From a virus, in IMG/VR virus record IMGVR_UViG_3300044996_000223, positions 1 through 43,236 of that record: a stretch of DNA of 43,236 bases; one strand, written 5' to 3'. The notes below the pieces were generated by a model. That model saw nothing but the letters and a program-made list of their open reading frames with translations, had not been told where the DNA came from and made no database searches. A program made the position numbers and the translations under genes. The first letter of the stretch is position 1, and the number at the start of each line of letters is the position of its first letter. Of the stretch, positions 254-43,236 are shown piece by piece.

Positions 254-526
254 CGCTACTTCGAGACCAACTTCCAAGTGACCGCGCCGCGCCCATGTGA
301 CCACTCGACACTACCGCTACTGGTGACGACCGCCAGCAAATCGAGCCGCGCAAAACGGCACGCGCTCGGCATGAAACCGAAGTCCGTAAAAAACGCACCG
401 CTCGCATACGGCATCGGCTGGATGTCATGCGACGGGCTGAAAGAGGCGATACCGCCCGCCTACACTCAGCACATCGGAACTTGTGCGGCCAACGCTGCGG
501 CTTACCGACAGCCGCCTGAGAAATGA
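2..526 (+). CDS. DNA (cytosine-5) methyltransferase, C-terminal part
   Basis: This is the continuation of the gene that starts at 42778; across the circular join the protein is 243 aa. Visible motifs are the PPCQG catalytic loop with its nucleophilic cysteine, the ENV triad (motif VI), a QRHRYF motif (motif VIII), and a C-terminal IPPAYTQHIG segment typical of short phage-type enzymes. It would transfer a methyl group from S-adenosylmethionine to cytosine C5 and could protect phage DNA from restriction. No specificity subunit or partner nuclease is seen. The stop lies inside the loop of the attC-like site at 487-615, one base before the next start codon. The catalytic motifs look intact; target specificity cannot be read. 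Confidence 0.9.
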   Translation, partial: ALEYLEAHGSEYDLIHASPPCQGYSNLTPRSHRDKHARMIPAVRELLQRLGKPYVIENVAGARHELRNPVMLCGTMFGLRTQRHRYFETNFQVTAPRPCDHSTLPLLVTTASKSSRAKRHALGMKPKSVKNAPLAYGIGWMSCDGLKEAIPPAYTQHIGTCAANAAAYRQPPEK

Positions 527-615
527 CATGGCTACGCCACTGACAATCGAACCACAAGAAGCCACCACCGGAGCCGGTGAGCGGGCGGCTGTTGGTGTGC
601 AGCCGCTTGTTATCC
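487..615 (-). other. attC-like recombination site B
   Basis: The left core GGCCAAC (487-493) is followed by arm 497-516, a loop, arm 584-606 and the right core GTTATCC (609-615). The arms pair over about 20 bp, with extra bases only in the right arm. The left core is the exact complement of the right core of site A (GTTGGCC, 42853). The right core is the exact complement of the left core of site C (GGATAAC, 1106). The loop carries the stop of the upstream gene and the ATG at 528 of the next one. Confidence 0.87.
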
Positions 616-1214
616 ATCGGGTGTTCGCTCGCGCCTCACAGTGGACGTTCGAGATAAAGCCAGTGCGCGAACTACTGCAACGCTACGTCGGGGACGGGCG
701 TGGCTGGGCTGACCCGTATGCGGGAAAGAGCCGCCTTGCGGAATGGACGAACGACCTCAACCCAAACCAACAAACAACCCATCACCTCGAAGCTGCCGAC
801 TTCGCTGACGAACTGCCGGCAAATCTCAACGGCGTGCTATATGACCCGCCGTACTCATACCGACAGATTACTGAACACTACCGCGAATACGGAAGGACGG
901 CCACGGCGAAGGACACAAGCTACAACTTCTACCGCCGCGCCCAAATAAAACTCGCTCCCAAAATACGGACAGGCGGCATCGTCATCAGCTTCGGATGGAA
1001 CAGCAACGGGTTTGGGGTAGGGCTGGGCTTCGTGAAGCGCGAAATACTCCTCATCGCGCACGGACTACATCACAACGATACCATCTGCACTGTGGAGGAG
1101 AAGATGGATAACCGTGAAAGCTCACCTACGGGTGGGCGGAAAGGAACAGAATGGCAGAGAATAATCCCGCTGGCGTCCCTGACACCGGCAACATCACAAC
1201 CACCGGCGAGCTAG
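528..1214 (+). CDS. DPPY-type DNA methyltransferase
   Basis: The protein is 228 aa. It carries a DPPYSYRQ motif (the D/N-P-P-Y catalytic motif of N6-adenine or N4-cytosine amino-methyltransferases), an upstream DPYAGKSRLAEWTNDLNP segment and a downstream GGIVISFGWNSNG segment. These match a widespread family of small phage and mobile-element adenine-specific methyltransferases. Family homology begins about 35 residues in, near an in-frame GTG at 621. The first 27 codons are encoded by attC site B and are not part of the usual enzyme. The start at 528 is one base after the upstream stop and has only a weak ribosome site, so GTG 621 is an alternative. The 3' end runs into site C. Its likely role is anti-restriction; the exact base modified is uncertain. 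Confidence 0.85.
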   Translation: MATPLTIEPQEATTGAGERAAVGVQPLVIHRVFARASQWTFEIKPVRELLQRYVGDGRGWADPYAGKSRLAEWTNDLNPNQQTTHHLEAADFADELPANLNGVLYDPPYSYRQITEHYREYGRTATAKDTSYNFYRRAQIKLAPKIRTGGIVISFGWNSNGFGVGLGFVKREILLIAHGLHHNDTICTVEEKMDNRESSPTGGRKGTEWQRIIPLASLTPATSQPPAS

Positions 1215-1245
1215 CCCACCCGTTAGGTGCAGCGCCTTGTTCGGC
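1106..1245 (-). other. attC-like recombination site C
   Basis: Left core GGATAAC (1106-1112), arm 1120-1137, loop, arm 1214-1233, right core GTTCGGC (1239-1245). The left arm pairs completely with the right arm except for two extra right-arm bases (C and T on the + strand) separated by 6 bp. The unpaired spacers between core and arm are 7 and 5 nt. The loop carries a strong ribosome site and the ATG at 1151. The right core is the exact complement of the left core of site D. Confidence 0.9.
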
Positions 1246-1555
1246 ATTCGAGATGGTGGATGCAACTGACGATGAACAATACTTCCCCCTCGGCGTGTGG
1301 CTGACGCTCGAAGCTGCCATCGCCGCACTGGATGAATGCAAAGACCCGGACGATCTTGGCTCGGATGGGTGTCACGATGACTATGCAAAAGTGGAAATCC
1401 GGCAACGCGCCATCGGCTGGTCCGCCCATGGCAAGAAAGTCTACCAGCGCGAGTGGGCACAAAAGTATGACGAGGCCAAGGACGAATACGAGTGGCGTGT
1501 AATGCCGAACGCTCCGCTTGAGCTACAGGCTCAGCGGAAGAAAGGCAACGAATGA
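1151..1555 (+). CDS. cassette-encoded hypothetical protein, 134 aa
   Basis: I do not recognise this protein. It is acidic, with no membrane segment and no obvious motif. The start is preceded by GGAAAGGAACAG, a good ribosome site located in the attC loop. The first 30 codons are attC sequence. An internal ATG at 1253, just after the recombination core, could be the ancestral start but has a poor ribosome site. The gene overlaps the end of the upstream methyltransferase by 64 nt and the start of the next ORF by ATGA. Its function is unknown; being in the same cassette string as two methyltransferases is the only context. Confidence 0.65.
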   Translation: MAENNPAGVPDTGNITTTGELAHPLGAAPCSAFEMVDATDDEQYFPLGVWLTLEAAIAALDECKDPDDLGSDGCHDDYAKVEIRQRAIGWSAHGKKVYQREWAQKYDEAKDEYEWRVMPNAPLELQAQRKKGNE

Positions 1556-1606
1556 ACCAACCAACGTCACCCGCTGAGACTGTTAGCTCCGAGCGGTTTG
1601 TTCGGC
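1504..1606 (-). other. attC-like recombination site D
   Basis: Left core GCCGAAC (1504-1510), arm 1514-1537, loop, arm 1571-1596, right core GTTCGGC (1600-1606). The arms form a stem of about 24 bp with a T-G wobble next to the outer extra base and an extra T six pairs further in. The two cores of this site are complementary to each other and to those of both neighbours (C right, D2 left). The loop holds the ATGA overlap where one ORF stops and the next starts (1552). Confidence 0.9.
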
Positions 1607-1842
1607 GCTTCGTGTGTCGCGGATACCTGTGCATCTCCGCGCAAGGTGCATTCGAGGAGTACGGCGGGCCTCACAAACACGATGAGCACTGCAAAGTTGT
1701 CGAAGTCCAAGTACGAGAGTGCGACATCGAACCTGCGCCGAACGCCGAGATATGCCACGCCGACCCGACCAGCGGCGTGACCATGAAGAAAACCGCCAAC
1801 GGGTCGGCGTTGGCATCAGCGGATGGTTCGACCTCCGCGTGA
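1552..1842 (+). CDS. cassette-encoded hypothetical protein, 96 aa
   Basis: The family is unknown. Residues about 42-70 carry His and Cys (HKHDEHCK ... CDIE ... EICH) that could bind metal, but I cannot assign a fold. The ATG overlaps the upstream stop as ATGA within the loop of attC site D, with AAGAAAGG upstream. The last 33 codons run through attC site D2 and stop ten bases past its right core, so the C-terminal tail is recombination-site sequence rather than conserved protein. Confidence 0.55.
   Translation: MNQPTSPAETVSSERFVRRFVCRGYLCISAQGAFEEYGGPHKHDEHCKVVEVQVRECDIEPAPNAEICHADPTSGVTMKKTANGSALASADGSTSA
1737..1832 (-). other. attC-like recombination site D2
   Basis: Left core GCCGAAC (1737-1743), arm 1749-1767, arm 1800-1820, right core GTTCGAC (1826-1832). 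The arms pair throughout except for the same two extra right-arm bases at 6-bp spacing seen in the other sites, with 5-nt spacers on both sides. The left core is the exact complement of the right core of D. The right core is the exact complement of the left core of E. This site was found by predicting its core from its neighbours, which is independent support for the chain. Confidence 0.88.
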
Positions 1843-1850
1843 AAGGACAG

Positions 1851-2030
1851 ATGGACGACCACAGCAAGTTCCGGCTCGGTGTATTCGGGCTGGTGGCACT
1901 CACAATCTGCACGCTCATCATCTCGGTGAGTACGTGCGTTTACAAAATCAACAAGATTGCTTTCGAGAACGGATACGAAGCCGCCCAACAGCAAGGCAGT
2001 CACCAAACCTACTGGAAGAAATGCCGGTGA
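1851..2030 (+). CDS. small single-pass membrane protein, 59 aa
   Basis: The start follows GAAAGGACAG, a good ribosome site. Unlike the other cassette ORFs it begins after the recombination core rather than inside the attC loop. Residues about 9-29 form one hydrophobic segment (LGVFGLVALTICTLIISVST), followed by a short charged tail, so it is probably anchored in the inner membrane with the C-terminus in either compartment. I do not recognise a family. It is the sole ORF of its cassette, between sites D2 and E. Confidence 0.6.
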   Translation: MDDHSKFRLGVFGLVALTICTLIISVSTCVYKINKIAFENGYEAAQQQGSHQTYWKKCR

Positions 2031-2031
2031 G

Positions 2032-2095
2032 GTCGAACGCGGAGGTCAGCGATGGCGAGCGTTAGCGAGACATTCGCTGCACCGAATGGTTGTGC
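2032..2095 (-). other. attC-like recombination site E
   Basis: A short site: left core GTCGAAC (2032-2038), spacer of 5 nt, arm from 2044, arm 2071-2083, spacer of 5 nt, right core GTTGTGC (2089-2095). The outer arm GGT-CAGCGA pairs with its partner with the same C and T extra bases in the right arm. The ribosome site GGAGG and the ATG at 2052 lie within the left arm. The left core is an exact complement of the right core of D2. The right core has no matching partner downstream. Confidence 0.8.
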
Positions 2096-2645
2096 CTCTG
2101 TGCTCAGCCTCGGTGCAGGCGTACAAAGTAGCACGATGGCACTAATGGCGGCACACGGCGAGATAACGCCCATGCCACTGGCGGCAATCTTCGCGGATAC
2201 GCAGGCCGAACCAAAGGCCGTGTACGAGTGGCTAGACTGGCTCGAAAGGCAACTGCCGTATCCGGTAGTGCGCGTGACTCGCGGCTCGCTGAAAGACGCC
2301 ATGCTGAAAGTGCGGCTCTCGAAGAAAAGCGGACTGACCTACGAGAAGCACAGCATCCCCGCATACATCGCGCATCCAACACGCGGCGACGGCATCCTAG
2401 GGCGGCATTGCACGATAGATTACAAGATCACGCCGATAACGCGCTGGCTGCGGAAATACCGCAAGCAGGGCGTATCCCAGTGGATCGGGATAAGCCTCGA
2501 CGAATGCGACAGGATGAAGGCTAACCGGGAGACGTGGATAAAGAACCGATGGCCTCTCATCGAAAAAAACATGACACGGCAAGACTGCCTCGACTGGATG
2601 AAGGCGCACGTTCGGCGTGTGGCAAGGAACGGTGACAATCCGTGA
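2052..2645 (+). CDS. PP-loop / PAPS-reductase-like protein, 3'-truncated
   Basis: The protein is 197 aa and opens with VLSLGAGVQSSTMALMA, the PP-loop of the adenine-nucleotide alpha-hydrolase fold found in phage PAPS-reductase-family proteins. ISLDECDRMK and RWPLIEKNMTRQDCLDWM are further family landmarks. Relatives continue from the last of these into a proline-rich segment with a Cys-x2-Cys pair. Here homology ends after MKAH (residue 186) and an unrelated 11-residue tail follows. The break coincides with a GTTCGGC core at 2610. Members are predicted to activate or transfer sulfur using ATP, and their phage role is not settled. Start 2052 has GGAGG upstream inside attC site E; an in-frame GTG at the PP-loop is an alternative. 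It is probably inactive or altered. Confidence 0.75.
   Translation: MASVSETFAAPNGCASVLSLGAGVQSSTMALMAAHGEITPMPLAAIFADTQAEPKAVYEWLDWLERQLPYPVVRVTRGSLKDAMLKVRLSKKSGLTYEKHSIPAYIAHPTRGDGILGRHCTIDYKITPITRWLRKYRKQGVSQWIGISLDECDRMKANRETWIKNRWPLIEKNMTRQDCLDWMKAHVRRVARNGDNP
2610..2616. other. isolated attC core GTTCGGC at gene truncation point
   Basis: The heptamer is identical to the right cores of sites C and D and lies in frame at codon 187 of the PP-loop gene, exactly where family similarity stops. No folded arms flank it. It may be the scar of a cassette deletion or of recombination at a secondary site. A 7-mer alone could be chance; its position is what makes it notable. Confidence 0.5.
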
Positions 2646-2649
2646 AAGC

Positions 2650-2777
2650 CGCTAACGTCCGGGATGAGCGACATGGGCACTGAACCTGAGCAAGACCGTC
2701 ACACAGACGGTCAGAACCGGGGTGGACATGACCTGCCCGGAGAGAGTGCCCATGTTCGCTCCGTCCCGTGGTTCTGC
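2650..2777 (-). other. attC-like recombination site F
   Basis: Left core CGCTAAC (2650-2656), arm 2660-2680, arm 2746-2768, right core GTTCTGC (2771-2777). The arms pair over 21 bp with a T-G wobble and two extra right-arm bases at 6-bp spacing, as in the other sites. The loop contains a second perfect hairpin, GACCGTC (2694-2700) with GACGGTC (2706-2712). The right core matches the attI-like core at 3000 exactly. The left core does not match site E. Confidence 0.83.
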
Positions 2778-2906
2778 GCCGACTGCGGCTCACGCACCAT
2801 AGGACGGCACGGCATGGGATGCCGGACACTCCACGGAATAGAAAGGACGCTCAACAAGGCGTATCTCGAACGAGAGAACAGGAGGCGGAATGAATCACCG
2901 ATGTAA
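2664..2906 (+). CDS. cassette-encoded small Cys-containing protein, 80 aa
   Basis: I do not recognise this protein. Residues 1-36 are encoded by attC site F. The body begins with WFCADCGSRTIGRHGMGC, a CxxC followed by a further Cys that suggests a small zinc-binding knuckle. The C-terminus is basic and charged. The start at 2664 lies in the left arm of the site with no good ribosome sequence, so expression level is doubtful. It overlaps the next ORF by 17 nt. Confidence 0.5.
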   Translation: MSDMGTEPEQDRHTDGQNRGGHDLPGESAHVRSVPWFCADCGSRTIGRHGMGCRTLHGIERTLNKAYLERENRRRNESPM

Positions 2907-3012
2907 CTGGTACTGCTGGCTACGATGCCTGATAGGGCGTAACTCTTACATACGCGCTGGCGGAACTCGCTGGTGCGAGTGCTGCGAGAACCGTAAAGCG
3001 CAGAACCACTGA
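2890..3012 (+). CDS. Cys-rich micro-protein, 40 aa
   Basis: This short ORF has the best ribosome site of the region (AGGAGGCGG directly before the ATG). It encodes six cysteines in 40 residues, including a CNWYC pair and a CECC cluster, with several Trp and Arg. The spacing suggests a small zinc-ribbon-like or disulfide-rich peptide. Its stop is within the attI-like region. The family is unknown; the coding call rests on the ribosome site and composition. Confidence 0.5.
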   Translation: MNHRCNWYCWLRCLIGRNSYIRAGGTRWCECCENRKAQNH

Positions 3013-3033
3013 TTAGGCAAACAACGGTTAGCA
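3000..3033 (-). other. attI-like junction
   Basis: GCAGAAC (3000-3006) complements the right core of site F exactly and closes the last cassette. A second core, GTTAGCA, lies at 3027-3033. No hairpin arms connect them, which separates this from attC and resembles an attI simple site. It sits just upstream of the integron-integrase start codon, the canonical position. The assignment is by position and core sequence only. Confidence 0.5.
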
Positions 3034-3037
3034 TATT

Positions 3038-3172
3038 ATGAAACGAGAACAAGCCATTCAGAAACTACGGGACGTGATAAGGCGCAAGCACTTCTCATTA
3101 TCCACCGAGGAATCTTACGATTACCCAACAGCAACCGTCGGCAACCTCAACCCAACATCCTTGACCTCGTGA
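3038..3172 (+). pseudogene. intI: 5' fragment of an integron integrase gene
   Basis: The ATG at 3038 opens a 44-codon frame. Its first about 28 residues (LRDVIRRKHFSLSTEESY in the middle) match the N-terminal core-binding helix of integron integrases (pattern LRxxIRxxHxSLxTExxY). From about codon 28 the frame runs into the 3' end of the phage integrase gene, read from the other strand, and stops. The fusion point (about 3118-3121) coincides with the phage integrase stop codon. The tail is therefore not integrase and the fragment cannot be active. Its place next to the attI-like site, pointing away from the attC array as judged from attC polarity, is the normal integron layout. Confidence 0.65.
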
Positions 3173-4263
3173 TCCCACACCTTCGCATACTTGGCGGTTG
3201 TACTCAGTTGACCGTGACCCATCGCGCGCTGCACAATCGGCATCGGTGTATTTTGCTTGAAAAGCTCGTGGCAGTAGGTATGCCGGAAACGGTGAAACAA
3301 CTGCTCGCCTCGACCGCATGGCGCGCTCCCCAGCGTCTTGCGAATCCACGCGCACAAGTATTGACTCAACAATCCCGGCGTCAGCGCCCACTCGGCGCCG
3401 AAGTAGAAATCACTACCCACAGACGGAGCGCAATCCCTCAACGCTTCGAGCGCGTCCGCGTGCAACGTGAATTCAATGCTGTTGTTCGGATTGTCGTAAC
3501 TCCATTCTCCGCCAGCCTTCTTCCACACCTTGAACGATCCCGCGATCAAATCCACGTCTTGCGTTCGCAACCGCGCCACACTGCTCGTCCGAAGACCGTG
3601 GTAATATCCCAACGCCACTATCGCGCGCAACTGCTTGTCCGCGCGCGCCGACGCAAACAACTTCTCAAGTTCTACAACACTGTAATACGATGGCAATTTC
3701 TCGGCTGGCTTCGGGCGCTTAATCCCCTCCGCAACCGTGATGTCGTAAGGCAGGAAGAAATGCTTGCCCTCGCTCTGCCGCTCCTGCGACGCCCACCGAC
3801 ACAATGTTCGCAACACCTGAAACTCATTCAATATGGTTTTCTCCTTCGCCCCGCTGTCGCGCCGATGCTTCAAATACGCCTCCACGTCAACCGACTTCAA
3901 ATCACGGAAACACTTGGCTCGCGCTGGAAAAAATTCCTTGAAATGCCGGTAGATTGCGTGATACCTCATCCGTGTCAACGTGGAAACCTTGTTCAACAAA
4001 CCGATAGTGTCGAAAGCCGTGTTGCCGTCGAAGTATCCGGACAACACCGTGTCAACGCTTGCTGTTTCTGGATTGCGCTCCGTCGTAAGTTTGTCAACAA
4101 GCACGCGCTTCATCCGACGCGCCTCGATCTTCGCCGCCTCAAAACTATTTCCATCCCCGACGACCTTGCGCCGACGCTTCGAGTTTTCATCCAGGAAGTC
4201 AATACACCACCTCCCGAATTGGTTTTGCATCACCCTCACAGTCCTGCGTATTCCGTTGCTCAT
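3121..4263 (-). CDS. int: phage tyrosine integrase
   Basis: A 380-aa tyrosine recombinase. Catalytic residues are visible: Arg225 (GLRTSS), Lys in VWKK near 248, His324 and Arg327 in HRFRH, His350 (MGHG) and the nucleophile Tyr359 (TTAKYAKV). The N-terminal 60 residues resemble an arm-binding domain and residues about 75-180 a SAM-like core-binding domain. It lacks the extra insertion that marks integron integrases, so it is a phage-type enzyme that would integrate and excise the prophage. AAAGG precedes the ATG. Iterated TCACA motifs lie just upstream. Its stop abuts the integron-integrase fragment. A possible excisionase partner is at 40611. Confidence 0.93.
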   Translation of the reverse strand: MSNGIRRTVRVMQNQFGRWCIDFLDENSKRRRKVVGDGNSFEAAKIEARRMKRVLVDKLTTERNPETASVDTVLSGYFDGNTAFDTIGLLNKVSTLTRMRYHAIYRHFKEFFPARAKCFRDLKSVDVEAYLKHRRDSGAKEKTILNEFQVLRTLCRWASQERQSEGKHFFLPYDITVAEGIKRPKPAEKLPSYYSVVELEKLFASARADKQLRAIVALGYYHGLRTSSVARLRTQDVDLIAGSFKVWKKAGGEWSYDNPNNSIEFTLHADALEALRDCAPSVGSDFYFGAEWALTPGLLSQYLCAWIRKTLGSAPCGRGEQLFHRFRHTYCHELFKQNTPMPIVQRAMGHGQLSTTAKYAKVWDHEVKDVGLRLPTVAVG

Positions 4264-4534: not shown

Positions 4535-4807
4535 ATGGAATCGCCTAGCCGAATCGTTGATGTCTTCCCGTCTGTTGAAGACCTTAAAATTGATCCCGCG
4601 CATCTTCGCGTGTGGCGGATCGCGTACAAATTCAAGACCGAACTACACGGCTGGCAGGACGGCCAACCGTTTGTTCTTACCAGACCAGCCAACAAACCAG
4701 TTGAAGGCATCGCCGTCGTCATGGCCGCTGCCGCGCACAAAAACTGCATCGGCATCGAACTCACATCTTGCCGCCTGCATTCACCCCTAACCTCGGAGCC
4801 ATCCTAA
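4535..4807 (+). CDS. hypothetical protein, first gene of left early operon
   Basis: A 90-aa soluble protein with no recognised motif. The start is chosen because AAAGGAG lies 8 nt upstream; a longer frame from 4508 would begin inside the terminator T-run. It ends directly before the ATG of the KTSC gene, so the two are translationally linked. Function unknown. Confidence 0.7.
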   Translation: MESPSRIVDVFPSVEDLKIDPAHLRVWRIAYKFKTELHGWQDGQPFVLTRPANKPVEGIAVVMAAAAHKNCIGIELTSCRLHSPLTSEPS

Positions 4808-5065
4808 ATGAAAATCCTCACAAGCGAGCCGATAGCAAGTAGCGACATCACATCGGTAGCATACGACAGCAAGCACGGTGTTCTGCAACTCGAATTCCGC
4901 GCCACGGGTTTCTACCACTACTACGGTGTTCCAACGACGATTTACAAAGGAATCAAAACATCACCGCACCACTGTAAGTTTTTTCTGAAACACATCAAAG
5001 GGAAATTCTCCTACGAAAAACTCAAGCCATCAGAACCGCCAACCGCGAAAGTACAATCACAATGA
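4808..5065 (+). CDS. KTSC domain protein
   Basis: An 85-aa protein. The pattern of a short strand with SSDI-like residues, YDSKHGVLQLEF, then FYHYYGVP and a following helix is the KTSC domain, a small fold common in phages and bacteria and sometimes fused to nucleic-acid enzymes. Here it stands alone. The family's biochemical role is not established; nucleic-acid association is suspected. The start follows the upstream TAA directly and the end overlaps the next gene by ATGA. Confidence 0.75.
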   Translation: MKILTSEPIASSDITSVAYDSKHGVLQLEFRATGFYHYYGVPTTIYKGIKTSPHHCKFFLKHIKGKFSYEKLKPSEPPTAKVQSQ

Positions 5066-5511
5066 AATCTCGTCGCAGAAAACCGCGCATTAACCATTAC
5101 AACAATTTTGACGACCAATCGGATCGCCACAAGCGGCTCGTTTCAGCCGTAATCGAGCAAGCCGTAAAGGATTATCTCTACTACGTGTCCGTTGGTCTCG
5201 CTTTTAATCTTCAACCCATAGATTCAGCATGGAGCACACAGACGACACTAAAAAAATGCACCGTCAAATACGCCAGCGAGCGCGGCAAGGCAACTCGCTA
5301 CGTCCTCACCTTAATCAACGGCGTGGAGATTGTACTACACGGCAAAGACCAAAACATATCACGCGCAGCCATTGAGCGAGTTTGTCATTTCCTTAAACAA
5401 AATGGAGGAATGGATCAATGGATAGATATTGCGGAGCTTCCAATAGCAGGCTGCCAAATCCGCAAAAAACTAACCCAACTACAATATGAAAAGGAAACAC
5501 ACAACACATGA
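5062..5511 (+). CDS. hypothetical protein, 149 aa
   Basis: I do not recognise the family. The N-terminus is strongly basic (KSRRRKPR) and the middle has alternating hydrophobic strands. The rest is soluble with no catalytic motif that I can see. It overlaps both neighbours by ATGA, placing it firmly in the early operon between the KTSC and JAMM-peptidase genes. Confidence 0.7.
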   Translation: MKSRRRKPRINHYNNFDDQSDRHKRLVSAVIEQAVKDYLYYVSVGLAFNLQPIDSAWSTQTTLKKCTVKYASERGKATRYVLTLINGVEIVLHGKDQNISRAAIERVCHFLKQNGGMDQWIDIAELPIAGCQIRKKLTQLQYEKETHNT

Positions 5512-5963
5512 TAACTGCGCTTACTCTCACCCACCCCGCCCGTGTTCGCATGGACAATCACGCCATCGCCGCATACCCGCGCGAATGCTGCGGATTGTTG
5601 CTTGGCACAAAACAAGGCACCATCATCGAGGCGGTACCCACCGAAAACACAATCCGCAAATCGCACGCTCACCACGCATTTGCGATCCCCCTCATCACTG
5701 TACTCATTATCCGCCGCATGGTACGGAAGCTCGTAAAACACGATCCGCGACTCAAAAACCTGCGGATGCTAGGGTTCTACCATTCCCACCCAAACGCTCG
5801 CCCAATCCCCTCGAAAGATGACATTGCGCTGGCTTGGCCGCGGCACGTCTATCTCATTGCGCGCACGCAACGCGGTACTGTCTGCCCGTGGCACGCATGG
5901 GTTCTTGACGATGAAACACCAGCCGAACTCCCTATGACCACCGAAGGAGACATTCCAGCGTGA
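5508..5963 (+). CDS. JAB/MPN (JAMM) metallopeptidase-like protein
   Basis: A 151-aa single-domain protein. It has Glu26 in PRECCGLLLG and the zinc motif H92-x-H94-x7-S102-x2-D105 (HSHPN ... PSKDD), the complete JAMM signature. Bacterial and phage members cleave isopeptide or C-terminal amide bonds, or process tail-assembly proteins. The usual phage version is fused to an NlpC/P60 tail gene in the late operon, whereas this one is free-standing among early genes. A role in removing protein modifications is therefore conceivable but unproven. ATGA at the start and GTGA at the end couple it to its neighbours. Confidence 0.85.
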   Translation: MITALTLTHPARVRMDNHAIAAYPRECCGLLLGTKQGTIIEAVPTENTIRKSHAHHAFAIPLITVLIIRRMVRKLVKHDPRLKNLRMLGFYHSHPNARPIPSKDDIALAWPRHVYLIARTQRGTVCPWHAWVLDDETPAELPMTTEGDIPA

Positions 5964-6205
5964 AAAACCGAACCTCGACCGCGCTCATGCAACCGATCTG
6001 CGAACTCGCCGCCGAATGGCACAACCTCATGGAACGCGCGGGACACGGCGAACGCATACCACGCCGCATCATCACTGCCATCGAAGACGCGCTTGATTCG
6101 CTTTGGGAGCAACGGCGACACCGCCTCGCCGCGCGCGACAAACGGCGTCCAGACCTTCTCCCCATCCTTGACAAAAAAGAAAAACTTGCACCAGCCCATG
6201 TATGA
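5960..6205 (+). CDS. hypothetical helical protein, 81 aa
   Basis: It starts at GTG, which overlaps the upstream stop as GTGA. It is predicted mostly alpha-helical, with a basic Arg-rich C-terminal half and no membrane segment. No family is recognised. It overlaps the next ORF by ATGA, so it belongs to the same polycistron. Confidence 0.65.
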   Translation: MKNRTSTALMQPICELAAEWHNLMERAGHGERIPRRIITAIEDALDSLWEQRRHRLAARDKRRPDLLPILDKKEKLAPAHV

Positions 6206-6525
6206 AACAAAAAACCGAATTGCCAGTTAATTTCAACGCGACCCACGAGCAACCGCTGGCCGATCTTTCGGAAAGCGCAGCCAAAGCTGCCGAGGCCGCC
6301 ATGCACACAACAAGTATGTGGGACGCTCGCCCTGCCGCCGACGCGCTGCCGAGCCGTCTTCACCCGATTGACGTTGCGATCTGGCTGCTCGTAAAAGCCC
6401 GCAAAGCGCGCGCCGTCAAATTTACCGATTCAGAGATTGCCGCCGCGTTCAACCTCGACGTTTCCCACGTCAAAAAAATCTACGCAACAACAGCCCAGCA
6501 CATCGCCCGACGAAAAATTGAGTAG
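6202..6525 (+). CDS. putative helix-turn-helix protein, 107 aa
   Basis: Residues about 75-105 (TDSEIAAAFNLDVSHVKKIY) fit a helix-turn-helix with the recognition helix near SHVKKIY. The N-terminal half is Ala-rich. Its place directly before the DnaB-type helicase suggests a DNA-binding role in replication start or regulation of the operon; this is inference. ATGA overlap upstream; 33 nt separate it from the helicase. Confidence 0.6.
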   Translation: MKQKTELPVNFNATHEQPLADLSESAAKAAEAAMHTTSMWDARPAADALPSRLHPIDVAIWLLVKARKARAVKFTDSEIAAAFNLDVSHVKKIYATTAQHIARRKIE

Positions 6526-6558
6526 CCAAAACTTCTCAACGCTACCACGACACTCCCC

Positions 6559-6594
6559 ATGAACAACACCATGAACAACACCATGAACAACACC
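6559..6594 (+). repeat. 12-nt tandem repeat carrying three in-frame start codons
   Basis: ATGAACAACACC occurs three times in a row at the 5' end of the helicase gene, giving MNNT three times and three equivalent ATGs. No ribosome site precedes the first. Slippage would change only the number of leading tetrapeptides. Confidence 0.9.
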
Positions 6595-7914
6595 CACCGC
6601 GACCGCGTTCTACCCAATGCACAAGACGCAGAAATGTGCATACTCGGCGCCGCGCTCCTCTCTCAAGAGTGCGCCGCCACGATCTTCGACACCATCAAGC
6701 TCGACGATTTCTACTACACCCACCACCAGATCATCTACCGCGAACTGCGCGCGCTCAAAACCGCCGACACTGTTCTCCTCACGCAACGCCTCGCCGACAT
6801 CGGCAAGCTCGAAGAAATCGGCGGCCCTGCCATGCTGTCTGATTGCATCGGCAAAGTACCTACCACCGAAAACGTCGAATACTACATCGAAACAGTTAAA
6901 GAGAGGGCGTCGCTCCGCAACCTCATTGGCGTCCTCGCCCGCAATCTCGACAAGGCCTATGACGTGAATTCAGATGTGCTTCAATTTCACGATCAAGTTG
7001 AAAGCGAAGTGCTCTCGATCACATCCGCATCCATGTTCGACACCGCCACGCCCACCATTGCCGACGGCTCGCGCAAATTCATCGAACGCCTCGCCGCCAG
7101 GCTCGACTCCAACAGTCACGGCGTTACCGGAATACCCACCGGGTTCGCCAAGCTCGACAAGTACACAACCGGCATCCACCCGCTTTATTATATTATCGCG
7201 GCGCGCCCAAGCGTCGGCAAGACGATGCTGATGATGAACATTGCCGAACACTTCGCAATCGCGCAAAAGAAACCCGTCGCGATCTTCTCGCTGGAAATGT
7301 CCATCGAAGAACTCACCGAACGACTCTACTCGTCCGTCACGCGCATCAATTCCATGTCCATCCGCACCGGCAACCTAAACAACGCAGAATGCAACCGCAT
7401 CCTGAACGCCATCAACGAGATTGACGCCTCCGGCATGATTATTGACGACACCACCGGACTCGACATCGCCGAACTACGACGACGCGCCCGCCGCTTCGTG
7501 CACAAGCACGGTGCCGCCGCGATATTCGTTGACTACCTCGGCCTCATCGAATCATCGTCGCGCCGCGCGCTCGACAACGATACCGTCCGCGTCAGCATTG
7601 TTTCGGCGGGACTCAAAAACCTACAGCGCGAGCTTAAGGTTCCCGTCATCGCGTGCTGCCAACTTAACAGAGACAAGGAAAAGCGCGGCGACGACGCTCG
7701 CCCAAAACTTTCCGATCTCCGACAATCCGGCTCCATCGAACAAGACGCCGACGTGGTTTTACTCCTCCATCGCAAACTTCACGACGAAGACCCAACGGAA
7801 GCCTGCAAAACCGTACTCGACATTGCCAAGCAACGACACGGCCCGATCGGTTTAATCCCGCTTACCCTCCTCAACACCTGTTACCGCTTTGAAAGCTCAA
7901 CCAACGCCACCTAA
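6559..7914 (+). CDS. dnaB: DnaB-type replicative helicase
   Basis: A 451-aa protein with the two DnaB domains. The N-terminal helical domain (residues about 18-120, starting LPNAQDAEMCILGAAL) is followed by the RecA-like ATPase with Walker A ARPSVGKT (215-222), EMS after the Walker A strand and a Walker B strand ending in VDYLGLI. Late motifs include ACCQLNRD and LRQSGSIEQDADVV. It unwinds DNA ahead of the phage fork as a hexamer. It is the best-supported replication gene in the genome; no loader or primase is recognised beside it. The start is uncertain among three tandem ATGs. Confidence 0.95.
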   Translation: MNNTMNNTMNNTHRDRVLPNAQDAEMCILGAALLSQECAATIFDTIKLDDFYYTHHQIIYRELRALKTADTVLLTQRLADIGKLEEIGGPAMLSDCIGKVPTTENVEYYIETVKERASLRNLIGVLARNLDKAYDVNSDVLQFHDQVESEVLSITSASMFDTATPTIADGSRKFIERLAARLDSNSHGVTGIPTGFAKLDKYTTGIHPLYYIIAARPSVGKTMLMMNIAEHFAIAQKKPVAIFSLEMSIEELTERLYSSVTRINSMSIRTGNLNNAECNRILNAINEIDASGMIIDDTTGLDIAELRRRARRFVHKHGAAAIFVDYLGLIESSSRRALDNDTVRVSIVSAGLKNLQRELKVPVIACCQLNRDKEKRGDDARPKLSDLRQSGSIEQDADVVLLLHRKLHDEDPTEACKTVLDIAKQRHGPIGLIPLTLLNTCYRFESSTNAT

Positions 7915-7924
7915 TAATCCAACC

Positions 7925-8074
7925 ATGACCACCACCGCGCCGCAAAACGGGAAGGGATCGCGCCCACGCCGCGTCAACGGCGAGCGCTATCGCCGCGAAC
8001 ACAGCCGCATATTCAGAAAGAATCCAAAGAAGAACCCAAAGAAGCGAAGGAAAATTTCAGAAGTAGCTACTTAA
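7925..8074 (+). CDS. small basic protein, 49 aa
   Basis: GKGSRPRRVNGERYRREH followed by a Lys/Arg-rich tail matches a short conserved phage protein type of unknown function that often sits near replication genes. The chosen start (MTTTAP) follows the helicase stop by 10 nt; an earlier in-frame ATG at 7889 lies inside the helicase gene. The 3' end overlaps the convergent late operon by 4 nt. Confidence 0.6.
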   Translation: MTTTAPQNGKGSRPRRVNGERYRREHSRIFRKNPKKNPKKRRKISEVAT

Positions 8075-11000
8075 CGCCGCGCCAATCGTGGCTGTTGTGA
8101 CGCTTCATTGCTTTCACGAAGCAATCGGAACAAGCCTGACAACAAGGCTTGCCGCGCCGCACGATCCTTTTTGTACTGCTCGCGCTGCTGGGCATTAAGT
8201 CCAGCGTAAAACTCATGCTCGAATTGTCGGCTACCGGTAAACGGCGCGTTCGCGTGATCCCTGTACCTCTCGCTGATCTTCTTCGGTGTATATCCGCTCT
8301 CGATCAACTCATTGTAGAGCACCTTCACGCGCTCCGCGTTATTCAACCTCACGGCCTCGTCAAGATCGCGGTACTTGCTTATCGTGCCAACCGGCTCTGA
8401 CTTGCGCCCCTTCCGCGCCATGAACCGACGTGCCGCCGTGCTCGTTGCTTCCCTGACGCGCTCCGAATACCCGAACGATTCGATTGGACGCTTGAACGTG
8501 CCTTCAATGAATTTCTGCGGTGCCGTCTGCCCGCCGCTGCCGAGTTTATTTGAAACCGCGCCGTACAACATCGGGTTCTGCTGTTCAAACGCCGCGCGCG
8601 CCTGCTCACCTACTTGTGAAAGCGTATAACCACGCCCCAAGTCCTTTGCCAGTCGCGGCGCCGGTCCGCCGCGCAAATCCAATCGGTTCCCGGTAATCGC
8701 CGCATACGCGCCACCAACGCCCGGTCCAAGCCACGGATGCAACGCCGTGCTGGTTATATCGGAAAACGCTTTGCCGCCGATCTCGTCAACCGTCTCCCCT
8801 TCAATCGCGCCATGTATGACTGCATCCAACCCATACCCGCGTAATCCGCGCCGCAACCCCGTCAACTGAAATACATCCAGCGTCCGGCGTTTTCCGTCAT
8901 CACCGTCACCCAAATCCACTTCACCAATCTTCGTGCCCGGTCTGCCAGTCGGGTTGTCCCATAAAAAATAATTCATCATCGCGGGCACAAGTGCCATCAT
9001 CGCCGTATTCGACAGATTCATTAAACGCGGCATAACTGTATTCGCTTCAAAACCGGGGCTACCAATCACCAGCCGACGACCAAACCGATTAAACGTCTGA
9101 CCCGCCACGATGAATGGACTCAACCCAACGTCGCGCGCCCACGCCGCCTCCGGCGACATCAAGCGGCGATTGTACTCGCCAAGCTGATTCACGAATTTCA
9201 CCCTGTTATCCAGCGTGTCAACCGCTCGCCCTGCCTCCACGTTCTTAGTAAACCAATCGTCCAATATCAACCGCGTCGCCGTATCGTTCTTGTGCAAAAA
9301 CTCCTGAACCGGAGCTGTAATCCTACCCAAGCCTACCGCTGGGTATTCCGGGCGGATCAACCCTAACTGCGCCAGTCTGGAAATCTGCGCCCGAATCTCC
9401 GGCGTGTCATTTGCCATTTCAATACGCTTCATCGTCAGTGCCCGCGCCGCTTCTTCTGTGCCAACAAACGGCAACCGCCGCAACTGTTCGAGCGCGTAGT
9501 TGTCGCCTCTCAACGAATTTATCAAAATGGAAATCTGGTTTTTCGTGTGCGCTGACGCATCTACGCCAGACAACATTTGCAACTGCGTGAACGCGCGTAG
9601 TATCGGATTGCTTCTCGGCCTCAACCCCGTGTTTAGCACCCGCAACACTTCATCCGCCATGCGTTCTGGCACCCACAAACTCTTTTCAATGTATTGCAGT
9701 TGGCCGCTCGGTAGTGTCTCTGGCGCTTTAATTGGTATCCTGACAGGTTTCTCGCCCATCACCACCGTCGGCGCATCCTCGCCATACTTAGTGATAACAC
9801 CGCCTGCCTCTACAATCGCATCATAGAACCGCTGCTTCGTCACCTCGTTCCACCGCCCCCCAATCGAATTCAGAATTACCGCATCCATGTCAGTCGAATA
9901 CTCGCCCGTGCCTTTTGCCAGCCGTGAAAATTTATCTCGCTTCACATTCGGGTTGCGATGATTCGAGTACATGATCTCCGGCACCGGCATACCGTTCTCA
10001 GCAAAGCCGCGCATTTCTTCCGCCTTGAAATCCGCCAACAGGTTCACCCGCATACCAAGCTCCGGGTATCTACCGCGCCCCTCGCGCGGCGTGTTCGGAT
10101 CAACCCGTAACATTTCGTTGTAAAGCGGATCCATCCACTTTTTCACCATTTCACGATTCCACGCCAGCGTTGTCGAAACCAACTCCGGATCGCCCTTCGC
10201 TCGACGCAACTCCGCGTCCATCGCATCAAGCCCACTCGTTCCTCCATGCGCCTCCTCAATATCACTAACCGCCTTCATTGCCTCATCAATATCAGACGGC
10301 TTTGCATTCGGGTCATCCAACAACCGCCGCACCCGTTCCCGCGCCTGATCGTAAATCCCTAGCACCTCGTTCTTGTTGATAACACCCATGACGCGCGCCT
10401 TAAACGCCTTGTCATGCAACCGGGTTTTCGGAAGCACGTTCCCAAGTACCTCGTCCTTGATATAACGCGGCGCGATCTTCGCCGCCGCGTGCTGACGTGC
10501 CGCAATCCCCAATCCTTCCCGCATCAAGTTCGGAATACCGGAACCCGGAAACTTGAACCGATCAATAAACGACTGCATCACCCTCCACGTCTCCCGCGTG
10601 CCGGGCGCGACGATACCTAGATTGCCAAACAAATTCCCCTGTTGTTTTTCCGCTTCCTCTTTGGCCTTCGCTTCCTCCGCTGCGACGCGATCCGCCTCGG
10701 CCTTTGCCGCCGCCTGCTTCGCTGTCTCATCCACTTCGCCGACCAACTTCATCGGCTCCGACTGCCCCTTCAACAAATCGCCAGTGCCCTTTTCGCCGCT
10801 CGCAAGACGCGGCGGCGCGCTCGATTGCAACCCGGCGCGCTCACGGACTTGTCGCACCTTGACGGGATCAAGCTGCCAGTTTTCCCATGACGCCAACTCG
10901 CGACCCGCCGCATCAGCCAATGCCGCTGTCTTGTTGCTCGCCTTCACCCCGACTGCGTTGGCCTCCTCTGCTCGTGTCGTCACGGATCGTCCAATTCTTG

Positions 11001-40050: not shown

Positions 40051-40614
40051 ATGGAATTTCACGAATTCATATCTGACGGCGCCAAATACATCGGCGGCCT
40101 TGATACCGGGATGGGACAAATCCTCAAATATCCAACCCTCGACGCGCCCGAAGACTGCGAAAAAGAAGAAGTCTTCTCTGGCACATCCCGACAATTCTGG
40201 TCATGGGTATTCCGCCTCATGGCATCCAACAAACGCCACGACTTCGGCTACCGCAAGCTCACCGCCACAACCACGGAAACACACACCAACATTCCACACC
40301 CACCCGACCCACCCACCCATCACGAAGTTCCCATCAACAAAGCCACCGGCGAAATCGGCCAACTCCTCGACTGCCCGCTGCCAGAAAACGCCGTCGTCAC
40401 TGTCGTACTACGCACCCCCAGCGGCCCGCCACCCAAAGCAACTCGCGATTGCCTCGTCGGTCAAGGCTTCCACTGGAACCCCGACGACGCGCGCGGCGAC
40501 AAAAACTACCCACAACGCGCATGGCTCAAACACCGCGTCGCCGCGCCCGATCTCCCTACCTACCGCACATTCGCCGCCAAACTCAAACTCGCCTTCGACT
40601 ACCATCCAAAATGA
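40051..40614 (+). CDS. hypothetical protein, 187 aa
   Basis: I recognise no family. The N-terminal half contains SRQFWSWVFRLMASNKRHDFG and a His/Pro/Thr-rich linker. The C-terminal half (GFHWNPDDARGDKNYPQRAW and a closing helix) looks like an independent small domain. ATGA overlap with the excisionase-like gene downstream. Confidence 0.6.
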   Translation: MEFHEFISDGAKYIGGLDTGMGQILKYPTLDAPEDCEKEEVFSGTSRQFWSWVFRLMASNKRHDFGYRKLTATTTETHTNIPHPPDPPTHHEVPINKATGEIGQLLDCPLPENAVVTVVLRTPSGPPPKATRDCLVGQGFHWNPDDARGDKNYPQRAWLKHRVAAPDLPTYRTFAAKLKLAFDYHPK

Positions 40615-40808: not shown

Positions 40809-40915
40809 CCATGACCGACAAATTTCCTGACTACCAGCAACCTTCGCTGTCGCCAAGCGCGACAAAGCTCACCTACTGGTGGGCGAGGAGAAACTATGAC
40901 AACACCCAAAGGTGA
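40805..40915 (+). CDS. short ORF at the phage-array border, 36 aa
   Basis: ATGA overlap with the excisionase-like gene; a second in-frame ATG is at 40811. The peptide ends KLTYWWARRNYDNTQR, which is encoded by the left arm of a degenerate attC-like site. It may be a translational coupler rather than a functional protein. Confidence 0.4.
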   Translation: MTMTDKFPDYQQPSLSPSATKLTYWWARRNYDNTQR

Positions 40916-40930
40916 AGCGGATTGTTCTGC
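40867..40930 (-). other. degenerate attC-like site G
   Basis: The left arm (40867-40884) is identical to the left arm of site C at 17 of 18 positions. The right half (40903-40930) aligns with that of site C and ends in the core GTTCTGC. The left core is missing (GCG in place of an AAC core), one of the two characteristic extra bases has been lost and inner pairing is weak. The loop still holds a strong ribosome site and the ATG at 40896. Probably the decayed outer end of the array. Confidence 0.55.
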
Positions 40931-41177
40931 GCCTGAGTACCGCATCGAAAAGGTGCAAGACTTCCTCAAAGTGCCAGCCGACCGGATGGAAGAATGCCTG
41001 ACAGAGTTCCGCGACTTCCTCACTACGGCGCGGAGCATAAAGAAGATGGCAGACGAACTCGGTAAGGTCATCGGAAGTCCGCCGCCCGAAACGCTGGTGG
41101 ATGCTTTCATATGGATTGATGATGGAGTACGCAAGGGAACAGTGCGCTTCACAGCGGAGAACCAAGATGGAGAATAG
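40896..41177 (+). CDS. hypothetical protein, 93 aa
   Basis: GAGGAGAAACT directly before the ATG is a strong ribosome site, located in the loop of attC-like site G. The protein is mainly helical (VQDFLKVPADRMEECLTEFRD, in part) and acidic. No family is recognised. Near its end GGAGAAC (41156) differs by one base from the expected partner of the GTTCTGC core. Confidence 0.6.
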   Translation: MTTPKGEADCSAPEYRIEKVQDFLKVPADRMEECLTEFRDFLTTARSIKKMADELGKVIGSPPPETLVDAFIWIDDGVRKGTVRFTAENQDGE

Positions 41178-41186
41178 GAGTACATC

Positions 41187-41885
41187 ATGTGTGAACAACT
41201 AACCTCAGTCGGAATCAACGTGCGAGAGCCGTACAAACTCGCAATCCACACCATCAACTCACACTCAGCAACTTGGCATGAGTTGAAGCTGGAAACTAGC
41301 GCAGACCGTTGCGACTGGCGCGAGATGGAGTGGCCTGAGAAAAACGACCAGCCAACAATCCGTTGGCGTAATGAAGATGATGAGGGAACGCAAGCGCGCG
41401 TCATGGATTGGGTACTGTCGAATTGGCCAACGAGAAACGAGATGATTTCTCATTGCCTGATGAACGCTGAGTACGTGTACGCCATCGGCGCAACGGGATT
41501 AACCACGCTCACATGCCCGAAAGCCAAGACTGTGGACGCCATCGGCGCAACGGGACTGACAGAGCTCATATGCCCGAACGCTGAGTACGTGTACGCCAGC
41601 GGCGCAACGGGATTGACAACGCTCACATGCCCGAACGCCAAGTACGTGGACGCCAGCGGCGCAACGGGATTAACCACGCTCACATGCCCGAAAGCTGAGT
41701 ACGTGGACGCCAGCGGCGCAACGGGATTAACCACGCTCACATGCCCGAAAGCTGAGTACGTGGACGCAATCGGCGCAACGGGACTGACAGAGCTCATATG
41801 CCCGAACGCTGAGTACGTGAACGCCATCGGCGCAACGGGATTGACAACGCTCACTTGCCCGAAAGATGCAACTGTATACCGGTGA
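41187..41885 (+). CDS. leucine-rich-repeat-like protein with seven 19-aa repeats
   Basis: 232 aa. After a non-repetitive N-terminal part (residues 1-93), seven near-identical units of 19 residues follow, of the form A-E-Y-V-x-A-x-G-A-T-G-L-T-x-L-x-C-P-x. They are consistent with a short bacterial leucine-rich-repeat solenoid. Such solenoids bind proteins. No signal peptide. The high DNA identity of the units indicates recent expansion. AGGAG lies upstream of the ATG. Confidence 0.7.
   Translation: MCEQLTSVGINVREPYKLAIHTINSHSATWHELKLETSADRCDWREMEWPEKNDQPTIRWRNEDDEGTQARVMDWVLSNWPTRNEMISHCLMNAEYVYAIGATGLTTLTCPKAKTVDAIGATGLTELICPNAEYVYASGATGLTTLTCPNAKYVDASGATGLTTLTCPKAEYVDASGATGLTTLTCPKAEYVDAIGATGLTELICPNAEYVNAIGATGLTTLTCPKDATVYR
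41466..41864 (+). repeat. seven 57-nt tandem repeats
   Basis: The units encode the 19-aa repeats of the gene at 41187. Variation is limited to a few codons, mostly alternating between TTLTCP and TELICP versions. The repeats keep the reading frame, so they are coding repeats and not a CRISPR array. Confidence 0.9.
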
Positions 41886-42013
41886 CGAAAACAATCTGTG
41901 GCGTGGACAATAGCAGGCACGACGCTCTCGGCTAATCCTGACAGCATGACGCCGTTACTACACGCCACAACAAACAACCAACCGCGCGAAAGCACACGAA
42001 AGGAAACTAAATT
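41886..42013 (+). other. gap with an inverted repeat
   Basis: 128 bases without a gene. TGTGGCGTG (41897-41905) is the exact reverse complement of CACGCCACA (41961-41969), with 55 nt between. No attC cores or T-run flank it, so it is neither a clear recombination site nor a terminator. Confidence 0.5.
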
Positions 42014-42133
42014 ATGGAATCACCAACGGCAAATCTTGTAGCCACGGCGCTCCGTCGCCGTGCGCCCCGGCAGAGCTTTCGCCATCACCCTCAAGAAGCA
42101 ACACTCTTTGCTACGCCCAACAGTAGAATATGA
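42014..42133 (+). CDS. short ORF, 39 aa
   Basis: AAAGGAAACTAAATT precedes the ATG and the stop overlaps the next start as ATGA, so translation is plausible. The peptide is basic with no recognised motif (ALRRRAPRQSFRHHPQ in the middle). Confidence 0.4.
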   Translation: MESPTANLVATALRRRAPRQSFRHHPQEATLFATPNSRI

Positions 42134-42345
42134 CGAACTCGAATTTCTATTTGGCGCAGAAGGCGCGTCGGTCGCGAGCGATGTGCCTACAAGTGCCACT
42201 CTGGACGTGGAAAATGTTTAGCAACCAGAAACCAACATATGAGATAAACGGAGTGAAGTACAAACTGGTCGGACGCAAATTGTGGCAAGACCAAGTGCGC
42301 TTCTACTTCGCGCCTCCGAACGTGAAAGAAGGTATGACACGATGA
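42130..42345 (+). CDS. hypothetical protein, 71 aa
   Basis: A small basic protein with an aromatic-rich second half (YEINGVKYKLVGRKLWQDQV). It overlaps both neighbours by ATGA. The pattern of short strands could be a small beta-barrel. No family is recognised. Confidence 0.5.
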   Translation: MTNSNFYLAQKARRSRAMCLQVPLWTWKMFSNQKPTYEINGVKYKLVGRKLWQDQVRFYFAPPNVKEGMTR

Positions 42346-42746
42346 CCGCGACCCCTAACGCAACGAACGCAAAAGTCAGCGATGGCGCTGGCGCGAAAAC
42401 CTCAACTCGTAAAATGGACTCTCAAATTTCAACTGAATGTGTAGCGCAGGGCGAAAGCACCATTCGCTGCGCTGTCGTGTTAGAGTGCGCTGAATTCCAA
42501 GAACACAAAGACTGGAAGAAGAAGCATCCGACCGGGCCAGTGACATGGGATGCGTGGTGCTCACTCTGCGGATTCCGTCTGGAAGATAAACAGTGGGCAA
42601 GCGGACTCGCCATCGAAGGCGAAGGAAGGCGGCTGGCGCATGTGGTGAGCGTCGCTGTAATCAGGGGCGAAGTGTTCAAATCAACCAAACGCAAAATCGT
42701 CTGCTCCAAATGCTGCCCTGTAATACTCGAACACCATGACGACTAA
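42342..42746 (+). CDS. cassette-encoded zinc-ribbon-like protein, 134 aa
   Basis: CSLCGFRLEDKQW and CSKCC provide two CxxC knuckles about 50 residues apart, consistent with a zinc ribbon. Residues 1-46 are encoded by attC site H. The ATG at 42342 overlaps the upstream stop as ATGA; a second in-frame ATG at 42414 lies inside the attC loop as in the other cassettes. The function is unknown; such folds usually bind nucleic acid or protein. Confidence 0.6.
   Translation: MTATPNATNAKVSDGAGAKTSTRKMDSQISTECVAQGESTIRCAVVLECAEFQEHKDWKKKHPTGPVTWDAWCSLCGFRLEDKQWASGLAIEGEGRRLAHVVSVAVIRGEVFKSTKRKIVCSKCCPVILEHHDD
42362..42485 (-). other. attC-like recombination site H
   Basis: Left core AACGAAC (42362-42368), 6-nt spacer, arm about 42375-42389, arm 42456-42472, 6-nt spacer, right core GTTAGAG (42479-42485). 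The arm CAGCGA-TGG pairs with its partner with the same two right-arm extra bases as the other sites. The right core is the exact complement of the left core of site A. The left core finds no clear partner. Confidence 0.72.
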
Positions 42747-42750
42747 GCAA

Positions 42751-42859
42751 CTCTAACGGTCGAGGTGAGGGACAGAGATGAGCGCCACAACCACTATCGA
42801 GCGAAGCGAGCCTCGGACGCCCGCCGCTGGTCGCTGTTCCGTCCAGCGTTTTGTTGGCC
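42751..42859 (-). other. attC-like recombination site A
   Basis: Left core CTCTAAC (42751-42757), 7-nt spacer, arm 42765-42785, arm 42823-42846, 6-nt spacer, right core GTTGGCC (42853-42859). Outer pairing GT-GAGGGA-CAG has one mismatch plus the two shared extra bases; the inner arm has four mismatches. Both cores match their neighbours exactly (H right, B left). GAGG and the ATG of the methyltransferase (42778) lie in the left arm. Confidence 0.82.
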
Positions 42860-43236
42860 GCTGCCTCGACCTCTACTGCGGCGAAGGCGGGGCGAGAATG
42901 GGATATGCGCTCGCGGGCTACCAAGTGACGGGCGTGGACATCAAACCGATGCCGAGATACCCGCACGCTTTCGTCTGCGGTGATGCGCTCGAATATCTGG
43001 AAGCGCACGGCAGCGAATACGACCTGATACACGCCAGCCCGCCGTGTCAGGGCTACAGCAACCTCACACCAAGAAGCCACCGCGACAAACACGCTCGAAT
43101 GATACCAGCGGTGCGCGAACTACTGCAACGCCTCGGCAAGCCCTATGTGATCGAAAATGTCGCGGGGGCGCGGCACGAACTCAGAAACCCGGTGATGCTG
43201 TGTGGAACGATGTTCGGGCTACGCACGCAGAGACAC
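42778..43236 (+). CDS. DNA (cytosine-5) methyltransferase, N-terminal part
   Basis: First 153 codons of the gene that continues at base 2. The SAM-binding motif I is LDLYCGEGGARMG, followed by VDIKP and the PPCQG catalytic loop. GAGGTGAGGG lies upstream of the ATG. The first 25 codons are encoded by attC site A; motif I begins only four residues after the recombination core. There is no in-frame start between the core and motif I, so the enzyme can only be made from a start codon supplied by attC sequence. Confidence 0.9.
   Translation, partial: MSATTTIERSEPRTPAAGRCSVQRFVGRCLDLYCGEGGARMGYALAGYQVTGVDIKPMPRYPHAFVCGDALEYLEAHGSEYDLIHASPPCQGYSNLTPRSHRDKHARMIPAVRELLQRLGKPYVIENVAGARHELRNPVMLCGTMFGLRTQRH
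42984..43236. repeat. right copy of 253-bp end overlap
   Basis: Same sequence as 1-253 except g43110 in place of t127. It marks the point where the circular genome was opened. Confidence 0.95.

Follow-up and report, generated by a model that had tools for sequence, protein, structure and literature searches.

The circular phage genome considered here, a 43,236-nt IMG/VR virus record (IMGVR_UViG_3300044996_000223, analysed over its full length and hereafter called the window), carries an array of integron cassettes in which the genes are very probably inverted relative to their attC sites. In integron theory, promoterless genes lie just behind the attI promoter, with an attC at the 3′ end of each; single exceptions to the usual layout (attC 3′ of the gene and of the same polarity) do exist, and the array in the window does not follow it. 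An earlier note on this DNA had described integron-type gene cassettes in a circular phage. The attC-type cassettes and the circle were both upheld, and a phage integrase gene is present; what had been missed is the inversion of the genes with respect to the attC.

Several features place the array within a phage genome. Firstly, the ends of the window overlap (1-253 = 42984-43236; 253 bp with one mismatch, arranged as 126+1+126 bases), leaving a circle of ~42,983 bp once the overlap is subtracted, so that the array can legitimately be read across the circular join. Secondly, terminase, major head, connector and tail protein families are present in the window and, together with an integrase (phrog_1, 1e-34), bear out the earlier description of a temperate phage, lysogeny being predicted from these genes. 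Since the record is metagenomic, as are all the virus sequences compared here, and the point of circular closure lies within the array, the possibility that the array is host integron DNA or a chimera of the assembly has to be considered; we regard either as very unlikely, given that the same architecture lies between phage genes in two other contigs (G006 and G018) and that the overlap has the form that a strain variant of a circular genome would produce. Searches of IMG/VR with the integrase, the terminase and the major head protein found no relatives of the backbone, nor did the terminase in GTDB genomes, and cassette exchange on the window's own backbone is therefore not observable. Rfam and tRNA scans of the window gave no matches.

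All nine attC-like sites previously proposed across the circular join are present in the sequence (Table 1), with R″ and R′ cores of the form NNNNAAC and GTTNNNN. The site placed at 40867 does indeed lack its left core (40864-40930) and shows no core pairing with site 2, for which a proposed start at 42362 is better moved to 42353, at CCCTAAC. Strong evidence against chance is given by the cassette-wise core rule: R′ of one site and R″ of the next are complementary at 7/7 bases at seven of the eight junctions, exactly as had been claimed, with p = 1e-16 for fixed cores and 5e-10 when nine core choices per junction are allowed. Cores within one site match each other at 3-7 of 7 bases and usually differ. 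The last cassette ends at a further left core, the tenth (GCAGAAC, position 3000).

Pairing of the arms, which had been asserted for every site, was recovered at four array sites by a scan between AAC and GTT with a stringent cut-off, at which a dinucleotide shuffle yields 0.07. Sites 2, 3, 7 and 8 lean more on their cores and on covariance models. Two such models were searched on both strands: R1, built from 40 attC of bacterial integrons, and R2, built from 29 phage attC with the window excluded. R2 matched 2032-2095 (E 3e-10) and 1186-1245 (E 6e-5), both on the minus strand, and matched further array sites weakly with the minus strand favoured. Several sites score weakly because the loop of the model is trimmed, and R1 overlooks attC with long loops even in Rctr41k, despite the clear arms and cores there; a weak model score therefore does not count against a site. 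With more permissive thresholds, paired arms exceed shuffles only modestly (10 against 3.4), as they might if these were hairpins between genes (terminators or small repeats, for instance) rather than attC; set against the cassette-wise complementarity of the cores, the covariance-model matches and an IntI beside the same architecture in G006, that reading is scarcely credible. At the level of sequence the identification as attC is shown and, with at least two attC and no functional intI nearby, the array falls within the definition of a CALIN.

Table 1. Positions and strands of attC sites, cassette genes and flanking features in the window
Feature	Position	Strand	Remarks
attC site 1	40864..40930	-	left array end; left core lost; right core GTTCTGC at 40924
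attC site 2	42353..42485	-	cores CCCTAAC/GTTAGAG; right arm has extra bases
attC site 3	42751..42859	-	cores CTCTAAC/GTTGGCC; contains C5 methyltransferase start codon; R2 11.7 bits on -
attC site 4	487..615	-	cores GGCCAAC/GTTATCC; arm score 39
attC site 5	1106..1245	-	cores GGATAAC/GTTCGGC; R2 24.9 bits, E 6e-5 on - against 8.1 bits on +
attC site 6	1504..1606	-	cores GCCGAAC/GTTCGGC; fold z ~ -5.6; R2 match on -
attC site 7	1737..1832	-	cores GCCGAAC/GTTCGAC; fold z ~ -5; R2 14.3 bits on -
attC site 8	2032..2095	-	R2 43.4 bits, E 3e-10 on -; R1 (bacterial attC) E 0.007 on -
attC site 9	2650..2777	-	cores CGCTAAC/GTTCTGC; arm score 48; right arm has extra bases
Cassette gene 1	40896..41177	+	93 aa, no assigned function; start within attC 1
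Cassette gene 2	42414..42746	+	110 aa, no assigned function; start within attC 2
Cassette gene 3, C5 DNA methyltransferase	42778..43236, through join to 526	+	243 aa; phrog_363 1e-34; start within attC 3
Cassette gene 4, DNA methyltransferase	528..1214	+	phrog_11619 2e-36; start within attC 4
Cassette gene 5	1151..1555	+	134 aa, no assigned function; start within attC 5
Cassette gene 6	1552..1842	+	96 aa, no assigned function; start within attC 6
Cassette gene 7	1752..2030	+	92 aa, hydrophobic stretch; start within attC 7
Cassette gene 8, PAPS-reductase-like	2052..2645	+	197 aa; phrog_424 6e-33; start within attC 8
Cassette gene 9	2664..2906	+	80 aa, no assigned function; start within attC 9
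Compact AAC...GTT site, attI candidate	3000..3033	-	intI-proximal end; GCAGAAC closes last cassette
intI 5′ remnant	3038..3124	+	~29 codons; ORF from 3038 = MKREQAIQKLRDVIRRKHFSLSTEESYDY
Phage tyrosine integrase P0001, not IntI	3121..4263	-	phrog_1 1e-34; 3′ end cuts into intI remnant

The polarity of the sites can be read from their secondary structure. Recombination at attC depends on an asymmetry of the folded site, in which one arm carries two extra-helical bases that, along with further unpaired features, target IntI to the bottom strand (PMC8946536). An L″/L′ stem with two extra-helical bases on one arm is seen as asymmetry in six of the eight bounded sites of the window, and at all six it is the right arm, seen in gene sense, that carries these bases, sites 1, 4 and 7 giving no polarity call individually. 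The same arm carries them at every asymmetric site of L057 (6/6), G006 (12/12), G007 (4/4), G017 (5/5) and G004 (3/3); in controls they lie on the left arm, both in contig L012 (3/3) and in a chromosomal integron of Anaerolineales (5/5). Extra-helical bases on the right arm imply that the attC is inverted relative to the genes, in which case a cassette consists of an attC followed by a gene and is cut between AA and C of the left cores. The covariance models point the same way, in that R1 matches virus arrays only on the strand opposite the genes, and matches L012 and phage TJE1 on the gene strand. Automatic calls on linked cassettes gave 26 inverted against 2 canonical in seven virus or MAG arrays, a biased sample found mainly via two cassette proteins, compared with 41 canonical against 2 inverted in 12 bacterial integron arrays drawn from two groups, Gammaproteobacteria and Chloroflexota; these counts leave out loci that repeat the array of L257. 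Both canonical calls in virus arrays, one of which lies in the window, probably arose where an overlapping ORF on the minus strand was picked. The inverted architecture also occurs in seven further virus or MAG contigs.

Every attC in the window contains an ATG with a frame that is open across the core into the following gene. In the C5 methyltransferase, the conserved motif LDLYCGEGG begins four codons past the core codon GTT, so that the start must lie inside attC 3. The phase of the reading frame at the core varies between sites, yet nearly always fits the following gene; were cassettes cut at their right cores, this variation would make free exchange impossible. On the same grounds we rejected a scheme in which each attC supplies the start codon for the gene of the following cassette, as a variable core phase would not survive exchange, whereas an inverted unit of attC plus gene explains it. 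Among inverted sites, 35 of 45 hold an in-frame ATG that is open through the core, compared with 19 of 90 in the other two frames (p 4e-10) and 6 of 40 bacterial attC (p 5e-9). These start codons lie mostly 47-88 nt ahead of the right core, and a Shine-Dalgarno-like motif, present at 11 of the 35, is not general; at site 1, the in-frame ATG at 40896 has AGGAG upstream. The recurrent cargo of inverted arrays comprises C5 methyltransferases, other DNA methyltransferases, MT-A70, RNA ligase and PAPS-reductase-like proteins, of which the methylation genes suggest a function in restriction evasion.

Two natural experiments speak to the boundaries of the mobile unit. The first is provided by L057 (a contig from the bin of a Ca. 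Uhrbacteria MAG), which contains a gene with 93% DNA identity to the C5 methyltransferase of the window over the larger part of its length. Homology begins at 42752, in the left core of attC 3, and goes no further than 490, in that of attC 4, and the upstream neighbours of the methyltransferase cassette differ between the two arrays; by its limits, the homology block corresponds to one inverted unit, attC 3 plus the methyltransferase. The second is found in G006. This phage contig encodes terminase, portal and head proteins alongside an intact IntI (329.8 bits, cut-off 265), and its intI faces the array with its 5′ end in the ordinary intI-attC geometry. Here the metagenome assembly contains a 236-bp duplication (100% identity) with AAC cores at both bounds, the second copy abutting the presumed attI just before intI, such that both the boundaries and the end of insertion agree with what the inverted unit would predict. 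The IntI of G006 shares <50% identity over its length with sampled bacterial IntI, although a single fragment of 222 residues reaches 50%, and no more than 43% with the IntI of known phages.

These observations bear directly on the possibility that the array is an ordinary CALIN, with genes in normal orientation, attC at their 3′ ends and frames that cross the attC by accident or through genome compactness. Core complementarity reads equally well in both directions, and single cassettes with genes against the array do occur (2 of 43 bacterial cassettes); an ordinary CALIN would nonetheless have to place the extra bases of every asymmetric site on the wrong arm, present its covariance-model matches on the strand opposite the genes, suit the next gene at nearly every core despite the shifting phase, and see both the G006 duplication and the window/L057 homology terminate at left cores. 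We consider it unlikely, and prefer inverted cassettes as the reading of the array.

The array is not simply integrase-less, since the stretch 3000-3124 retains a compact end site and the 5′ remnant of an intI. The remnant matches IntI N-termini, with 54% identity to one of them, a best E of 5e-5 among 34 and none of 500 shuffles as good, and is identical at 16 of 27 positions (E 1e-11) to the truncated IntI of phage contig G513, which TIGR02249 recognises at 1.7e-12; the remnant itself is too short for the NCBIfam HMM. Its homology breaks off at 3121, on reaching the 3′ end of the phage integrase gene. That integrase, P0001, was rejected as the cassette integrase, scoring 49 bits with TIGR02249 against a cut-off of 265 and facing the array with its 3′ end, and the record contains no functional intI, only the ~29 codons. 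L259 has an end site like that at 3000-3033 (0 of 2000 shuffles), G018 has one with a weaker resemblance, and a similar element occurs inside the array of G513; the pattern alone is unspecific, as it also matched L299, which is without an array. Remnants of intI lie at the corresponding array end in the window, in G018 (short, and similar to that of the window) and in G513, and L259 retains only both ends of IntI, flanking an unrelated ORF. Inverted arrays thus repeatedly adjoin decayed intI genes, with that of G006 intact.

Such decay raises the question of whether the array is now a dead relic of inverted cassettes, intI having been lost and the array surviving as an operon with hairpins between its genes, which would be a variant of the main reading rather than exclusive of it. 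The reduction of intI to 29 codons, a record without IntI, one mismatched junction and a site 1 without a core all lend this some weight; on the other side, the exact match persists at seven of eight junctions and the 93% DNA-identical methyltransferase cassette sits in another array among other neighbours, so any loss of activity is recent. We hold a dead relic to be possible, with rather less than an even chance of being correct.

Under the preferred reading of inverted cassettes, the attC top strand is the minus strand of the window, where the crossover point between G and TT corresponds to AA and C of the plus-strand left cores. One cassette then starts with the C of a left core, takes in the attC and the gene, and finishes with the AA of the left core that follows; with the ribosome start inside the gene's own attC, gene and start always move together. 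Polarity, cassette boundaries and start codons within attC are, like attC identity and the intI remnant, shown by the sequence, and recombination activity, read-through expression and a supply of IntI in trans are inferred. Cassette genes are co-directional with the phage operon on their left, so read-through transcription is likely; expression is predicted to come about by read-through from that operon, with the attC providing the translation start. Given IntI in trans, recombination would cut cassettes at the left cores and new ones would join at the right end beside intI, far from the promoter. As the intI of the window is cut to its first 29 codons, present movement would have to use IntI supplied in trans, by the host or a co-infecting phage. 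Beyond the window, we think it somewhat probable that phages possess an integron lineage of their own, marked by a divergent IntI, with every cassette gene inverted and starting within an attC, new genes joining the end of an operon, cassettes freely exchanged between unrelated phages and intI repeatedly lost.

It is worth noting that phage cassette arrays are less rare than the earlier note supposed: in 10,705 genomes, Qi et al. 2023 (PMC9892861) list 17 CALINs as well as four phages that bear an integrase, and five of six tested phage attC recombined with attI1 via IntI1. The phage CALINs described in that text resemble the window in being integrase-less attC arrays with methyltransferase cassettes. 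Of the examples in PMC9892861, phage TJE1 has canonical gene orientation in our analysis, unlike the window, and MW202573 looks inverted, like the window, an inversion that the available text does not mention; nor does that text report start codons within attC or an IntI of phage type next to inverted cassettes. Sedentary chromosomal and mobile integrons share the attC folding features and the core rule, and G006 shares their IntI/array geometry, but in the arrays described here nearly all genes are inverted, the start codon lies inside the attC, and the newest cassette would enter at the promoter-distal end. Spirochaete integrons with reversed intI (mentioned in PMC9668308) likewise have intI and genes on one strand; going by that description they differ from G006, in which the array flanks intI on its 5′ side, attC-intI polarity is ordinary and the genes are inverted. 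A parallel in translation is offered by ORF-11 in attI1 and short ORFs in attC, where a translation start in or beside the recombination site, as here, aids cassette expression (PMC8876359); those are separate short ORFs with re-initiation, whereas here the attC bears the gene's own start and first codons. A search of the open literature, which takes in neither subscription papers nor preprints, found that neither inverted arrays nor genes starting inside attC had been described, so novelty is provisional. Phage CALINs are already known, and the new part is the inverted-gene cassettes, apparently those of a phage integron lineage. Opposite gene polarity and start codons within attC alter how cassettes are expressed, where the newest cassette is positioned and how annotation tools ought to read the strand of an attC. 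They also point to a gene-swapping system of phages that is rich in methyltransferases and likely serves restriction evasion, and one that may offer a route linking phage and bacterial integrons.

The two ends of the window overlap by 126 bases, one mismatch and a further 126 bases, as expected of a circular genome when an assembler working at k=127 passes into a single-base difference between strains and out of it again; this variant is a synonymous change in the methyltransferase, the third cassette gene. The core match is lost at the junction of attC 1 and attC 2, and between these two sites lies a gene whose product carries tandem repeats of about 24 residues each (GATGLTTLTCPNA...). A phage gene close to the array's left end has a homologue in L057, a contig binned with a Ca. 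Uhrbacteria MAG, where it is fused in frame to the methyltransferase cassette.

Coordinates of features in the window and comparison sequences
Feature	Sequence	Position	Matching junctions
Terminal overlap	window	1-253 / 42984-43236	
Phage gene near array	window	40051-40614	
Repeat-protein gene	window	41187-41885	
Fused methyltransferase	L057	3504-4442	
Compact AAC element	L301	9017; 9856	
intI with replaced middle	L259	7966-8720	
CALIN	L248 (MW202573)	2069-3738	
IntI-like gene, then six attC	L298 (KX853513)	4680-10101	5/5

Within the L301 array, the compact AAC-TGATTAGGC-GGTTAGCA element occurs twice, so that its identity may not be confined to attI: a short attC and a copy of attI are also candidates. 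In L259, an unrelated ORF, HNH/AP2-like by eye, takes the place of the middle of intI, and the array flanks this gene on both sides.

Among named phages, MW202573 is a CALIN already on record (Qi et al. 2023, PMC9892861); its genes appear to run opposite to attC polarity, and their starts fall directly downstream of attC rather than within it. Virus Rctr41k (L298, KX853513), absent from Table 1 of that survey, has an array of canonical gene polarity, apparently a complete integron in a phage.
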